Shown here piece by piece: positions 54,829 through 59,657 of a stretch of DNA of 64,000 nt (its first letter is position 1; the number at the start of each line of letters is the position of its first letter). Origin of the DNA: Bacillus pumilus (GTDB lineage Bacteria; Bacillota; Bacilli; Bacillales; Bacillaceae); contig NZ_CP046128.1 in the NCBI RefSeq assembly GCF_038738535.1, forward strand, positions 2,852,001 through 2,916,000, written 5' to 3'. A model generated the notes under the pieces. It did not search any database. It saw nothing but the letters and a program-made list of their open reading frames with translations, and was not told the DNA's origin. Made by a program: the position numbers and the translations under genes.

Positions 54829-55605
54829 ATGAAGTATACATTCTTAGCCTTCATCTCCATATGTTTGCTCCTGAGTGGATGCCAAACAGAGATGAAGCCA
54901 TCTAATTCGAATAAAAAAACAGAGCTTGTGATTTCAGCAGCGGCAAGCCTTCAGGATGCACTAAAGGAAATTGAAGCCTCCTTTCACAAGCAGCATCCGA
55001 ATGTGACCTTAACGAATAATTTCGGGTCATCTGGCGCATTGAAGCAGCAAATCGCTCAAGGAGCAAAAGCGGATCTTTTTTTCTCAGCAGCTGAGGAGCC
55101 CTTCGATGAACTTGTTCAATCTGGAGACATTGATCAAGATTATATCAAGGACGCTATACAAAATGAGCTAGTCCTTATTGTGCCAAAAGATGGCTCTTCC
55201 TCTATTAAAAGCTTTCAAGACGTCCGGCACGTAAAAGGAAAGATTGCTCTTGGCACACCTGAATCGGTTCCTGCTGGTACATATGGCAAAGAGATCTTCA
55301 CACAACTGAACATATGGGACCAAGTGAAAAAGAATGCTGTCTACGGCAAGGATGTGCGGCAAGTCCTAAGCTACGTCGAAACAGGAAATGTAGAAGCAGG
55401 TGTTGTGTATAAAACAGACGCCCTCGTTTCCAAAAAAGTAAAGATTGCAGCTGAGGCAAATCCGGACATGCACTCCCCGGTTATATATCCAGTAGGGATT
55501 GTAAAAGGGACAGAACATCTAACGGAAGCCAAGACCTTTTTTCAATTTCTTCAATCAGATACAGCCACATCGATTTTTAAGAAATACGGCTTTCAAGTGT
55601 CATAA
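54829..55605 (+). CDS. modA: ModA (YvgL), molybdate-binding lipoprotein
   Basis: Molybdate/tungstate-binding lipoprotein of 258 aa. Lipobox LSGC at about Cys17, then the ModA opening LVISAAASLQDALKEIEASFHK and the anion-binding NNFGSSGALKQQIAQGAKADLFFSA. ATG at 54829 follows AAGAGGTGTGAAC; the frame runs open from 54811. Overlaps modB by one base. Confidence 0.92.
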   Translation: MKYTFLAFISICLLLSGCQTEMKPSNSNKKTELVISAAASLQDALKEIEASFHKQHPNVTLTNNFGSSGALKQQIAQGAKADLFFSAAEEPFDELVQSGDIDQDYIKDAIQNELVLIVPKDGSSSIKSFQDVRHVKGKIALGTPESVPAGTYGKEIFTQLNIWDQVKKNAVYGKDVRQVLSYVETGNVEAGVVYKTDALVSKKVKIAAEANPDMHSPVIYPVGIVKGTEHLTEAKTFFQFLQSDTATSIFKKYGFQVS

Positions 55606-56270
55606 TGCTTATGCTGACTGAAGAATTTCTATCTCCCATTTGGCTGTCCGTTCAAGTTGCCATCGTCAGCGGGCTGTTGGCCACTGTTTTTGGCACAACG
55701 GTCGGCTTTTGGATGGCGCGAACAACTTTTAAGGGGAAAATGATTGTGGAAACGTTCCTGATGATGCCACTCGTTCTCCCGCCAACAGTCGTTGGCTTTT
55801 TATTGCTCGTCGTATTCGGAAAGCATAGTGTAATAGGGGGCGCGATTGAATGGATCTTCCATCAGCCGGTCATTTTCACATGGTGGGCGGCGGTCATTGC
55901 ATCGACAGTTGTGGCATTCCCGCTCATGTATCAATCAGCAAAGGCTGGCTTTTCTACGATTGAGTCAGATATAGAAGGGGCTGCAAAAGTAGATGGTGCA
56001 CATTCATTCCAAGTCTTTGCCTATATTACGGTACCTCTTGCCCTGCCTTCCCTGCTGTCTGGCAGCGTCCTCAGCTTTGCAAGAGCCCTTGGAGAATTCG
56101 GAGCGACCTTAATGTTTGCCGGCAACATCCCAGGAAAAACTCAAACACTCCCAACCGCTATCTATGTGGCGATTGATTCAGGACGAATGGAACTTGCTTG
56201 GTCCTGGACGATTTGTATTGTGATCTTATCTTTTATTATGCTTTTGGCTGTGCGAAGAAGCAGTACATAA
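55605..56270 (+). CDS. modB: ModB (YvgM), molybdate ABC transporter permease
   Basis: Permease of 221 aa with five helices and the EAA loop EGAAKVDGAHSFQVFAYITVPLALP. The ATG shares its A with the modA stop (TAATG), so translation is coupled. No modC ATPase follows; the next genes are convergent and unrelated, so an ATPase encoded elsewhere must be used. Confidence 0.92.
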   Translation: MLMLTEEFLSPIWLSVQVAIVSGLLATVFGTTVGFWMARTTFKGKMIVETFLMMPLVLPPTVVGFLLLVVFGKHSVIGGAIEWIFHQPVIFTWWAAVIASTVVAFPLMYQSAKAGFSTIESDIEGAAKVDGAHSFQVFAYITVPLALPSLLSGSVLSFARALGEFGATLMFAGNIPGKTQTLPTAIYVAIDSGRMELAWSWTICIVILSFIMLLAVRRSST

Positions 56271-56301
56271 AAAATCCCTCTATGTGAGAATAGGGGGATT
56301 T
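56271..56301. terminator. Terminator between modB and the ABC permease gene
   Basis: AATCCCTCTAT/ATAGGGGGATT stem with a T-run on the minus strand and GGATTTAT on the plus strand. It serves the converging transcripts. Confidence 0.75.
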
Positions 56302-57262
56302 ATACTACATATTTACTTTGCCGTTTTACCATAGTATAAGTCAGCAAGGATGACAAGCAGATAAGCAATGAAATGCAGATTAGAATTGTGGTTATATTCA
56401 TGGGAATAGGCACAAATAATTGGTAGTTCCCTTTAAAAGAAAACAGATGCAAAGCTAAGTTGGCGATCATGTTTTTTAAATCAAAGACACCTAAGTTTGG
56501 GATCAATAAAAAATAGACCATATAGATAACCACAGATAAAATAAAACTACGACATAAACTACCTAAATAAAAAACAAGTGTACTAAATAACCAGCTTGTA
56601 CATACAACAAACATTAATTGAAGCAGTATAGAATGTTCGGTACTATCTTTATATGTAAACAATTGAACAGATATATCTTTTGATATTACAGAATAAAAGA
56701 TATGGCTAGCCATATATGAAATAAGAGAAAGAATTGGAATTAAAAATAGAATGATTACATAAAGAGACAGTTGCTTTGAAAACAAAACATCGTTCCACTG
56801 ATATTGAACCGCTTTAATTTTCATCGTTTTATATTTCACATCATATGTCGCTAAATAGATCGCATATAAACCAAATACAAGTGGATAAAAGATAAAACCC
56901 ATCCATTCTAAATTAGTTGAAATGACTTGAGTTGGCTCCATCAAATGAAGTGATTGAATAAACTTCTCATAATCATATTTTAAGACATTTTCTACGACTT
57001 CTCCTTCAGCACCTGCTAATTCTCCTTCTTCTATGTTAACTGGCATCGTCAAAGCCTTTTTTATATCAATGCCGAGCTCCTTATATTCACTTTCTGTTTT
57101 TACATATTGGGCATAGTTGGATTTTGTTGTTTCATATTGTGCATAAACATTCCATAACGAAATCAGCATCAATGGAATAAACAAGATAAGAAATGTTTTA
57201 GCATAATATTGATATAAAAGCTCTTTTTTCATTAATTTAAAGATATGCTTGATAAATGTCAC
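56300..57262 (-). CDS. ABC-2-type permease of the secreted-protein cassette
   Basis: Membrane protein of about 320 aa, not recognised by name. One helix near the N-terminus (TFLILFIPLMLISLW) is followed by a long, probably extracellular loop of about 90 residues, then five to six helices. This is the shape of ABC-2 permeases in bacteriocin immunity and peptide export. GTG at 57262, 6 nt after GGAGAGG, is the likely start and overlaps the ATPase gene by 26 bases; ATG 57232 is an alternative without a ribosome site. The DNA here is AT-richer than its neighbours, suggesting transfer. Confidence 0.75.
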   Translation of the reverse strand: MTFIKHIFKLMKKELLYQYYAKTFLILFIPLMLISLWNVYAQYETTKSNYAQYVKTESEYKELGIDIKKALTMPVNIEEGELAGAEGEVVENVLKYDYEKFIQSLHLMEPTQVISTNLEWMGFIFYPLVFGLYAIYLATYDVKYKTMKIKAVQYQWNDVLFSKQLSLYVIILFLIPILSLISYMASHIFYSVISKDISVQLFTYKDSTEHSILLQLMFVVCTSWLFSTLVFYLGSLCRSFILSVVIYMVYFLLIPNLGVFDLKNMIANLALHLFSFKGNYQLFVPIPMNITTILICISLLICLSSLLTYTMVKRQSKYVV

Positions 57263-57899
57263 CCAAATCCTCTCCTTTTTCCTGAAAGTCATGGATTTGA
57301 ATCATTGATTTGTCTTTTAAAATAAACAATTCATCAACAATGGATGAATAAAATTCAAACTGATGACCTGTAGCTATAATGGTCATGTCTTTAGACCACT
57401 TCTTAATCATTGCTTTTAATTCCATCATTGTTCCATAATCTAAACCATTTGATATCTCATCTAAGAACAAATAAGTTGGTTTTGTTAATGCAATGAATAT
57501 GAAACTCAATTTCTTTTTTTGACCATAAGAGTAATGTTTGACCTTCTTTTTGAGGATCTCATGTGGTAGATATTCCCTTGCCAGTGTATCACACTTTTTT
57601 TGGTCAAAAGGGCTATTTAACAATAATCGTATATTTTGATAACCGTTTAGATTCAAATAGAGTGGTGAATCATCATACATAACCTGAATTTCATTTCTTA
57701 CTTGATCAATTGGCTGATGATTATACAAGATCTCCCCTTCATAATGTTCTAACTGGAGTAAACATTTCATAAAAGTTGTTTTACCAGATCCATTCTTCCC
57801 CATGATGAAATTTATTTTTTGATGTTTTATTTGAATATGTAAATCTTCAAATACAGGCTGATGTCGATATGTTTTTGTCAATCCTTTTACATGGATCAT
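57237..57899 (-). CDS. ABC transporter ATPase of the secreted-protein cassette
   Basis: A 220-aa ABC ATPase of the small exporter type. Walker A GKNGSGKTT at residues 34-42, signature HYSYGQKKKLSF (degenerate C-loop, SYGQ for SGGQ), Walker B TYLFLDEIS, and H-loop ATGHQFEFY. Coupled by overlap to the permease gene. It follows the secreted-protein gene after a hairpin (57951-57989), which may set the ratio of the products. Function in export or self-protection is inference. Confidence 0.85.
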   Translation of the reverse strand: MIHVKGLTKTYRHQPVFEDLHIQIKHQKINFIMGKNGSGKTTFMKCLLQLEHYEGEILYNHQPIDQVRNEIQVMYDDSPLYLNLNGYQNIRLLLNSPFDQKKCDTLAREYLPHEILKKKVKHYSYGQKKKLSFIFIALTKPTYLFLDEISNGLDYGTMMELKAMIKKWSKDMTIIATGHQFEFYSSIVDELFILKDKSMIQIHDFQEKGEDLGDIYQAYL

Positions 57900-57950
57900 T
57901 TTCCAAAAACTCCTCTTACTATTTTTTGAGATTATTTATAATATTTAAAC

Positions 57951-57989
57951 AGCGCTACTATGATTTGTAAATAGTTCTTAAGTAGCGCC
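57951..57989 (-). terminator. Hairpin between the secreted-protein gene and its ABC genes
   Basis: GGCGCTACT/AGTAGCGCT arms (57981-57989 with 57951-57959) on the minus strand, loop of 21 nt, followed by GTTTAAATATT. It is too weak in T for a full terminator, so partial read-through is likely. Confidence 0.55.
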
Positions 57990-58009
57990 TTTTCTATTAA
58001 TCTATAATA

Positions 58010-58513
58010 TTAATCCCAACCATGTTTCCCTTTTCCATTAACCCAAACTCGATCTGTAAAAGAGTTACTCACAAAGGTAACATCTCCCCACGGAGTGGGT
58101 GTTCCAAATTTAAGGGTTGTTTTATGTGCCCATTTATGAAGTTTAGATCCCTTATAGTATCTTTTAGAACCATTTTTTACTACTTTGTTAGGGAAGACAT
58201 AGCCCGCATCTTGAGAACCAGAACTCGATTTGACTTTACCCGAAGAATATTTCCAATCAACATATGATTTTGACCATGCCATAAAGCTCCCTCTAGATGT
58301 GGTTAGCCTTTTCGCATACACTTTCGATGCACTTGTAGACATCACACCTTTATTCGTTTCCTTTATTGTTTGTACATACATGGTACTACTAGAATAATCT
58401 TCTTGAATTACTTTTTGCTCCTTACTTAAATCAACATTTGTTGCTTCGGCAAATGTCGTAGGTAGGATCGTGGCACCCAAAGTTAACGACAAGCCAAGAA
58501 TGAATTTTTTCAT
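58010..58513 (-). CDS. Secreted tryptophan-rich cationic protein, possible bacteriocin
   Basis: A 167-aa exported protein that I do not recognise. Signal peptide about residues 1-24 (MKKFILGLSLTLGATILPTTFAEA). The mature part is rich in Lys, Ser, Trp and Tyr, has no Cys, and is strongly basic. The last 100 residues hold repeated Trp-containing beta-like stretches (MAWSKSYVDWKYSSG, LHKWAHKTTLKFG, TPWGDVTF, DRVWVNGKGKHGWD). AGGAGG lies 8 nt before the ATG. A following ABC ATPase/permease pair is the layout of class II bacteriocins and lactococcin-972-type systems, but motif identity to that family was not convincing. Confidence 0.75.
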   Translation of the reverse strand: MKKFILGLSLTLGATILPTTFAEATNVDLSKEQKVIQEDYSSSTMYVQTIKETNKGVMSTSASKVYAKRLTTSRGSFMAWSKSYVDWKYSSGKVKSSSGSQDAGYVFPNKVVKNGSKRYYKGSKLHKWAHKTTLKFGTPTPWGDVTFVSNSFTDRVWVNGKGKHGWD

Positions 58514-58742
58514 ATAATTAACCTCCTTTTATTTACAATTAATAATTTACCATCTAATTCTTTATTGTCCCATGAATTTCATGATATTTAAGGTAGATTT
58601 AAGGAGTTCTTCTCCTTTTTCAAGATAACTTAGGATCATAGAATGTCTTTCATTAATAGAAAAAACACCTTTCCATTAGTCATAGAAGTGTATCACTCCT
58701 ACGCCTATCGAAAGGTGTTCTTATAATTATTCTATTTCATTA
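58514..58742. other. Intergenic region between the cassette and yvgN
   Basis: It holds the AT-rich promoter area of the secreted-protein gene, a CATGAATTTCATG palindrome at 58571-58583, and the long-loop terminator of yvgN (58660-58722, AACACCTTTC/GAAAGGTGTT). No further gene is seen. Confidence 0.5.
58660..58722 (-). terminator. Terminator of yvgN
   Basis: GAACACCTTTC/GAAAGGTGTT stem with T-run on the minus strand. The loop is long and itself structured. Confidence 0.65.
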
Positions 58743-59588
58743 TTATTCAAACCCAACCGTCATCGTCTCTGGATTCGAGCCGACGCGCTCGTTGTTGTTT
58801 AATGCATCGATTTTTTCCATGTCTTCTTTGGATAGTTCGAAATCAAAAATATCTGCATTTTGTTTAATGCGTTCTTCGTTGATTGATTTAGGAATCGTCA
58901 CGACGCCGCTTTGCAGATCCCAGCGCAAGATGACTTGCGCAACAGATTTGTTGTAGCGTGCAGCAATGTCTTTCAATACGTCATGATCTAATAGCTTTCC
59001 TTGCATCAGCGGAGACCATGCTTCAATTTGAATGCCTTTTTCTTTTGCGTATTGACGCAGTTCGACAAGTGTCAGTTTCGGATGAAATTCAACTTGGTTC
59101 ACGGCTGGAACAACCTCAGCATCTTTTAACAGCTCTTCTAAATGCTGAATGTAGAAGTTGCTGACGCCTATGGCTCTAACTTTCCCATCCTTGTAAAGCG
59201 TCTCAAGCGCACGCCATGTGTCTTTAAATGTATCTGCATTTGGGCCAGGCCAATGAATCAAATAGAGGTCTAAGTAATCAAGACCTAATCGATTCAAGCT
59301 TGCGTCAAACGCAGCCAGCGCTTTGTCATAGCCTTGATCCGTGTTCCATACTTTAGACGTAATGAACAAGTCTTCTCGTTTCACGCCAGATTCTTTAATC
59401 GCTTTGCCTACGCCTGTCTCATTTTTATAAACGGCAGCTGTATCAATACTGCGGTATCCGTTTCGTATGGCTGCTTTTACGGCATCTACCACTTGATTGC
59501 CGTCCTCCACTTTGAATACACCTAAACCAAACCAAGGCATTTCCACTCCGTTATTCAGTGTTACGGTATCATTCAAGCTTTTGACCAT
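58743..59588 (-). CDS. yvgN: YvgN, aldo/keto reductase (glyoxal reductase)
   Basis: NADPH-dependent reductase of 281 aa that reduces glyoxal and methylglyoxal in its B. subtilis homologue. Catalytic Asp-Tyr in SIDTAAVYKNETGVG, Lys in FITSKVWN, His in LIHWPGPN. The C-terminal cofactor segment TIPKSINEERIKQNADIFDF is complete. ATG at 59588 is 8 nt after AAAGGTGG; the open frame to 59627 has no better site. Cytosolic and likely monocistronic. Confidence 0.93.
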   Translation of the reverse strand: MVKSLNDTVTLNNGVEMPWFGLGVFKVEDGNQVVDAVKAAIRNGYRSIDTAAVYKNETGVGKAIKESGVKREDLFITSKVWNTDQGYDKALAAFDASLNRLGLDYLDLYLIHWPGPNADTFKDTWRALETLYKDGKVRAIGVSNFYIQHLEELLKDAEVVPAVNQVEFHPKLTLVELRQYAKEKGIQIEAWSPLMQGKLLDHDVLKDIAARYNKSVAQVILRWDLQSGVVTIPKSINEERIKQNADIFDFELSKEDMEKIDALNNNERVGSNPETMTVGFE

Positions 59589-59657
59589 TTTAACAACCAC
59601 CTTTTTCATAGATTCCATCTTTTTCATTATCTCACGTTGTCCATTAAAACTCTATTA

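Follow-up and report, generated by a model that had tools for sequence, protein, structure and literature searches.

A candidate bacteriocin operon with its own ABC-2 type immunity transporter between modB and yvgN in Bacillus pumilus

A 64,000-nucleotide stretch of Bacillus pumilus DNA (NCBI RefSeq assembly GCF_038738535.1, contig NZ_CP046128.1, positions 2,852,001 to 2,916,000; hereafter the window) carries a three-gene cassette that we read, with a probability of about 0.72, as an operon for a bacteriocin and for immunity to it, in which an unmodified toxin secreted through the general Sec pathway would be paired with an immunity pump of the ABC-2 type (ABC, ATP-binding cassette). An initial annotation of this DNA had proposed a bacteriocin plus self-protection module, and its genetic side holds up because the three-gene unit is conserved, is found on a small plasmid, has transporters that outlast the first gene and occurs patchily; that the secreted protein is antibacterial is what we infer from this pattern. 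Most likely the protein founds a new family, with no named toxin family in the searched libraries and a layout like that of lactococcin 972 in the face of unrelated sequence. The list of open reading frames (ORFs) places the three genes on the minus strand between the convergent genes modB and yvgN, with an overlap of 56 bp between the ATPase and permease genes:

58010..58513, minus strand: secreted protein, presumed bacteriocin precursor (167 amino acids); an ORF whose homologues have the same downstream genes
58442..58513, minus strand: signal peptide, residues 1–24, probably cleaved after AEA; translation read by eye
58319..58441, minus strand: pro-segment, residues 25–65, probably removed; missing in the Lactococcus and G287 homologues, and set apart by dN/dS (ratio of nonsynonymous to synonymous substitution rates) and charge
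58013..58318, minus strand: conserved basic domain, residues 66–167, presumed active toxin; conservation, dN/dS and charge
57947..57993, minus strand: hairpin between the secreted-protein and ATPase genes, presumed leaky terminator or attenuator; pairing in the alignment
57237..57899, minus strand: ABC transporter ATPase (220 amino acids); PF00005
56300..57292, minus strand: ABC-2 type permease (330 amino acids), presumed immunity pump subunit; its profile reaches generic ABC-2 permeases
55605..56270, plus strand: modB, flank; PF00528, compared with empty sites
58743..59627, minus strand: yvgN aldo/keto reductase, flank; PF00248, next to modB at empty sites

The annotated description of the cassette, a signal-peptide-bearing, cysteine-free, basic and tryptophan-rich protein followed by an ABC ATPase/permease pair, agrees with the ORFs and their composition. 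The 167-residue protein has 0 Cys, 6 Trp, 22 Lys and an isoelectric point (pI) of 9.94, and its N-terminal stretch reads by eye as a signal peptide ending A-E-A, so the pump would not be needed for its export. Residues 25–65 (pI 5.95, net charge 0) are missing from the homologues in Lactococcus and in G287, a genome of another family; residues 66–167 make up 11.6 kDa with pI 10.2 and 6 Trp. In two groups, dN/dS is 0.21 and 0.12 over residues 1–65 against 0.05 and 0.06 over the remainder, and all three cassette genes are under purifying selection (0.08–0.16). Searches of Pfam, NCBIfam, PHROGs and PADLOC gave no credible family match for this protein or for the permease, in line with the annotation, which could not assign the module to a named family.

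A protein search found the secreted protein in 12 of 44 genomes of the genus, five from the pumilus group (identity 89–100%, the window's own included) and seven from the licheniformis group (53–57%), and every one of the 12 keeps the same order of secreted protein, ATPase and a permease gene overlapping that of the ATPase. The cassette occupies at least two chromosomal sites, modB/yvgN in the five and another region in the seven. Named carriers (nine loci) include B. safensis S-11, B. pumilus 36R, B. xiamenensis HYC-10, B. paralicheniformis KJ-16, B. haynesii, B. swezeyi, B. glycinifermentans and B. sonorensis; the permease frame of the last has a TAG within the aligned upstream part, and counted from the following start codon the ORF spans 321 amino acids. 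The permease profile matches 15 of the 44 genomes, 12 with the operon and three with short remnants; wherever the transporter is complete among them, the secreted protein accompanies it. Outside the genus, one of 397 genomes sampled from the order, G287, carries the cassette: a 132-residue secreted protein, then a similar ATPase, then a permease retaining the NLGxFDLKN motif. This secreted protein is a weak match (hhalign probability 30%), and its relationship is backed chiefly by gene order.

The cassette also occurs on lactococcal plasmids, and these bear on immunity. Across 72,556 plasmid records (E ≤1), the secreted protein appears in two and the permease in three, all lactococcal. One of these, pLLUC7005E, is a plasmid of 6078 bp on which the cassette is accompanied by one gene for replication, two for mobilization and one hypothetical gene, and its secreted protein aligns with the Bacillus profile over 97 columns at a hhalign probability of 97.9%. 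On pLLF72C, gene 1 has lost its first ~62 bases, and with them its start codon and the larger part of the signal peptide; the remainder is 99.5% identical over 421 bases. On pUCCL630E, tblastn found no gene 1, all that remains being the sequence downstream of it, and the orphan transporter is preceded by a transposase-like fragment. The ATPase and permease are open on both plasmids. An intact gene 1 is absent, then, from two of the three plasmids with the transporter; a pump kept without an intact secreted protein fits an immunity function. Further upstream on pUCCL630E, before the transposase-like fragment and orphan transporter, L015:4297-4581 encodes a protein of 94 residues that matches DUF5648 and whose start resembles a signal peptide.

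The transporter itself looks conventional. Its ATPase matches PF00005 (E 1e-19), with Walker A, signature, Walker B and H-switch at residues 34, 123, 144 and 177 and a D-loop also present. The top two NCBIfam models describe subunits for lantibiotic protection and for export of phenol-soluble modulins, and neither score comes near its cut-off; the better one, TIGR03740, gives 101.7 bits where 309.75 is required. The permease is annotated at 330 amino acids (the actual start may lie further in), and its profile finds weak matches in 17 of 398 genomes of the class outside the genus (E 5.7e-10 to 8.8e-5), as well as a paralogue in the window's own genome. A Pfam run on the best outside match and the paralogue assigned both to PF12679/PF12730. 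ATPase motifs together with a permease of roughly six helices from the ABC-2 superfamily, judged from hydropathy segments and the profile, identify an ABC-2 type transporter. Two features that had been singled out as unusual do not set it apart within this superfamily. The supposedly degenerate SYGQ signature reads YSYGQ and is not a sign of decay: ATPases of other permeases found with the permease profile read YSLGM, and the remaining motifs are present. The loop that joins the first two permease helices, called unusually long, comes to ~76 residues in a plain hydropathy count, only a little above the ~53–67 of eight generic ABC-2 permeases, the own-genome paralogue included; it is 61 and 65 residues in the Lactococcus and G287 permeases and ~14 in a BcrB-like permease.

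The transporter genes are near-identical on all three plasmids, which reduces their variants to few independent events. The three genes stay together, all under purifying selection, in the 12 intact copies of the genus, and ABC-2 permeases handle many different substrates; these two points would suit a transporter that exports something else, such as a lipid, a peptide or a cell-wall precursor, with the secreted protein as its extracytoplasmic partner or a surface protein required for that export rather than a toxin. We consider this unlikely, though worth keeping in mind: the transporter persists without intact gene 1 on two of three lactococcal plasmids, and patchy presence with remnants and exchange between lineages are easier to reconcile with antagonism than with a house-keeping role. 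Similar size, secretion and genomic region could also be taken to mean a secreted counterpart of YvgO with an antifungal or other defensive role, from which the pump would shield the cell envelope. In the subtilis group the corresponding gene flanks yvgN on its other side: at L106, L107 and L108 a gene for a YvgO-like secreted protein stands between yvgN and a Na+/H+ antiporter-like gene, and in the window a ROK-family gene sits at its place. A tblastn comparison with these three loci gave no similarity to the secreted protein (the only match, E 2.6, is on the opposite strand), and a cassette carried by lactococcal plasmids speaks for competition between bacteria; we regard a YvgO analogue as improbable.

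Among known systems, the bacteriocin operon we favour resembles the lactococcin 972 system (lcn972-orf2-orf3 of pBL1): each has a secreted, cysteine-free, unmodified protein followed by two further genes, which in lactococcin 972 may encode an ABC transporter for immunity, and each occurs on a small lactococcal plasmid. The cassette domain, of ~102 residues, is larger than that of lactococcin 972, which reportedly has 66. In the available part of one source, lactococcin 972 is a cysteine-free protein accompanied on a lactococcal plasmid by two genes possibly encoding an immunity ABC transporter, with results supporting post-segregational killing (PMC4055356); the accessible text of another states that it binds lipid II (PMC8538875). 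Shared layout, a signal peptide and a cysteine-free, basic, Trp/Tyr-rich domain might make the cassette protein a distant member of this family that binds lipid II, and Lcn972 genes (L092-L099) do occur above the Pfam cut-off in eight of the 44 genus genomes. Yet the sequences are unrelated beyond the signal peptide. PF09683 gives no match at E ≤1 for the window protein or at E ≤5 for three homologues, in a library where two known members match as a control, and hhalign against Lcn972 members reaches 5.8% and 11.3% with the signal peptide alone aligned. The window genome (G000) has no Lcn972 gene, and four of the eight genus Lcn972 genes precede a different, larger protein (at least 457–501 amino acids) than the ABC-2 permease of ~330. 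Membership of the lactococcin 972 family therefore strikes us as very improbable.

Other comparisons are looser than the one that supports a bacteriocin operon on the lactococcin 972 plan. Streptococcin A-M57 and dysgalacticin, of class IIIb, are large (>10 kDa), plasmid-encoded bacteriocins, the latter with a Sec-type leader, according to the available parts of PMC8308785 and PMC10086258; compared by description only, the cassette protein is likewise >10 kDa, in Lactococcus plasmid-encoded, and furnished with a Sec leader, but those parts describe no three-gene ABC cassette. Of the NCBIfam models, the lantibiotic protection model TIGR03740 gives the cassette ATPase its best score, although under the cut-off. 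The cassette permease belongs to the ABC-2 superfamily, like BcrB of BcrAB, but lacks a Pfam match of its own. Unlike lantibiotic protection or BcrAB systems, the cassette in the window contains no lanthipeptide or bacitracin gene. We found no paper describing it in the open-access literature, judged mostly from titles and the openings of abstracts, and the available part of a genome-mining survey of Bacillales antimicrobials does not mention it (PMC5100339).

A hairpin between gene 1 and the ATPase gene adds a further conserved element. Its 12 pairs are formed in 143 of 143 cells of an alignment of 12 Bacillus sequences, and slid versions reach at most 67% paired. Four of the 12 pairs have changed on both sides, mostly along the single split between the pumilus and licheniformis groups. 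Against 500 shuffles, three of five measures exceed every shuffle; pairs changed on both sides (reached by 97 of 500) and further pair types (489 of 500) do not. Strong stems stand at the matching place in Lactococcus (z −5.4), G287 (z −3.5) and a licheniformis-group example (z −3.6); the window's whole 113-nt stretch is unexceptional (z −1.4, equalled by 16 of 200 shuffles) although the stem is present. Leaky terminators behind the structural gene are well known from bacteriocin operons, and we presume that the hairpin acts as such a terminator or as an attenuator.

The history of the locus proved more complex than acquisition, as the annotation had it. The cassette is indeed richer in AT than its surroundings: the GC fraction of 56271–58540 is 0.315, against a mean of 0.42 over 1235 equal-size sliding segments of the window, of which only five, all on the cassette, are as low; the lowest of the 1144 segments free of cassette overlap is 0.374. 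Third-position GC is 0.28–0.30 in the cassette genes and 0.41–0.48 in modA, modB and yvgN. Low GC alone is no proof of acquisition, because cassette genes at five licheniformis-group loci have GC of 0.40–0.47. The claim that the cassette splits a modB–yvgN neighbourhood is borne out. We surveyed the site in the 17 pumilus-group genomes with the closest modB (≥85%), a gene present in 44 of 44 genus genomes; occurrence there is patchy rather than universal, with five intact cassettes, three permease remnants (G034, which adds an ATPase scrap, G043, and G013, a 38-residue match at 55%) and nine genomes in which modB and yvgN adjoin without it, 44–46 bp apart in eight and 186 bp in one. The cassette begins directly past a terminator-like inverted repeat beyond the modB stop, and this repeat resembles the one at empty sites.

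Intact copies are scattered across a FastTree phylogeny of the two flanking genes (midpoint root). Between the window and B. safensis S-11, synonymous divergence (dS) is 0.057 for the secreted protein, 0.089 for the permease and 0.194 for the ATPase, below the 0.242–0.543 of eight flanking genes, so the window's present allele has probably been exchanged between lineages. In the other nine genome pairs, cassette dS (0.211–0.557) is at or somewhat below that of the flanks (0.251–0.970); given this and the remnants in three of 17 genomes, the cassette seems old at the site and often lost, with repeated gain also possible. Age, loss and exchange fit an antagonism locus.

In the licheniformis group, BcrC-like and BcrB-like genes (PAP2 and ABC2_membrane_4 matches) lie directly upstream of the cassette in five of seven genomes; G012 has no such gene within 1.5 kb. 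We take the upstream run in four of these five to be the end of a bacitracin synthetase, bacRS and bcrABC, so that at L020, L021, L022 and L024 the cassette is directly 3' of presumed bacitracin self-resistance genes, and two antagonism systems would stand side by side. In B. glycinifermentans a fused remnant is all that is left of the bacitracin-like run: in strain GO-13, the ORF L023:5038-5562 fuses a bacitracin-synthetase-like end with a piece of a BcrC-like phosphatase, as though the bacitracin region had collapsed through deletion beside an intact cassette.

We envision the bacteriocin operon working as follows. The precursor encoded by gene 1 would be exported through the Sec pathway, losing its signal peptide and probably also the neutral pro-segment of ~41 residues, to yield a domain of ~100 residues, cysteine-free, strongly basic, rich in Trp and probably beta for the most part, that would attack the envelope of related Gram-positive bacteria. 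The hairpin may pass only part of the transcripts, giving more toxin than pump, and the ABC-2 transporter encoded by genes 2 and 3 would shield the producer, most likely by driving the toxin, alone or bound to its membrane target, off the membrane. Going further, we lean, at somewhat better than even odds, towards a bacteriocin family hitherto unrecognised, whose members would be secreted through Sec, carry a pro-peptide, be rich in Trp and beta-structured, and come with ABC-2 immunity pumps of their own. Such a family would extend over lactococcal plasmids as well as Bacillus chromosomes and would have arrived at the lactococcin 972 plan independently; its target might be a lipid-linked precursor of the cell wall, and its plasmid-borne copies could serve as a post-segregational killing system.

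If this reading is true, the cassette would represent a toxin family missed by the searched profile libraries, found in species with probiotic and plant-growth uses, and would bring an immunity marker ready for use. With intact copies, remnants and empty sites scattered through a single species group, producer and sensitive pairs of close relatives would be at hand for direct testing. The transporter-only plasmids of dairy lactococci would, in turn, act as natural elements of resistance to a bacteriocin not yet described.
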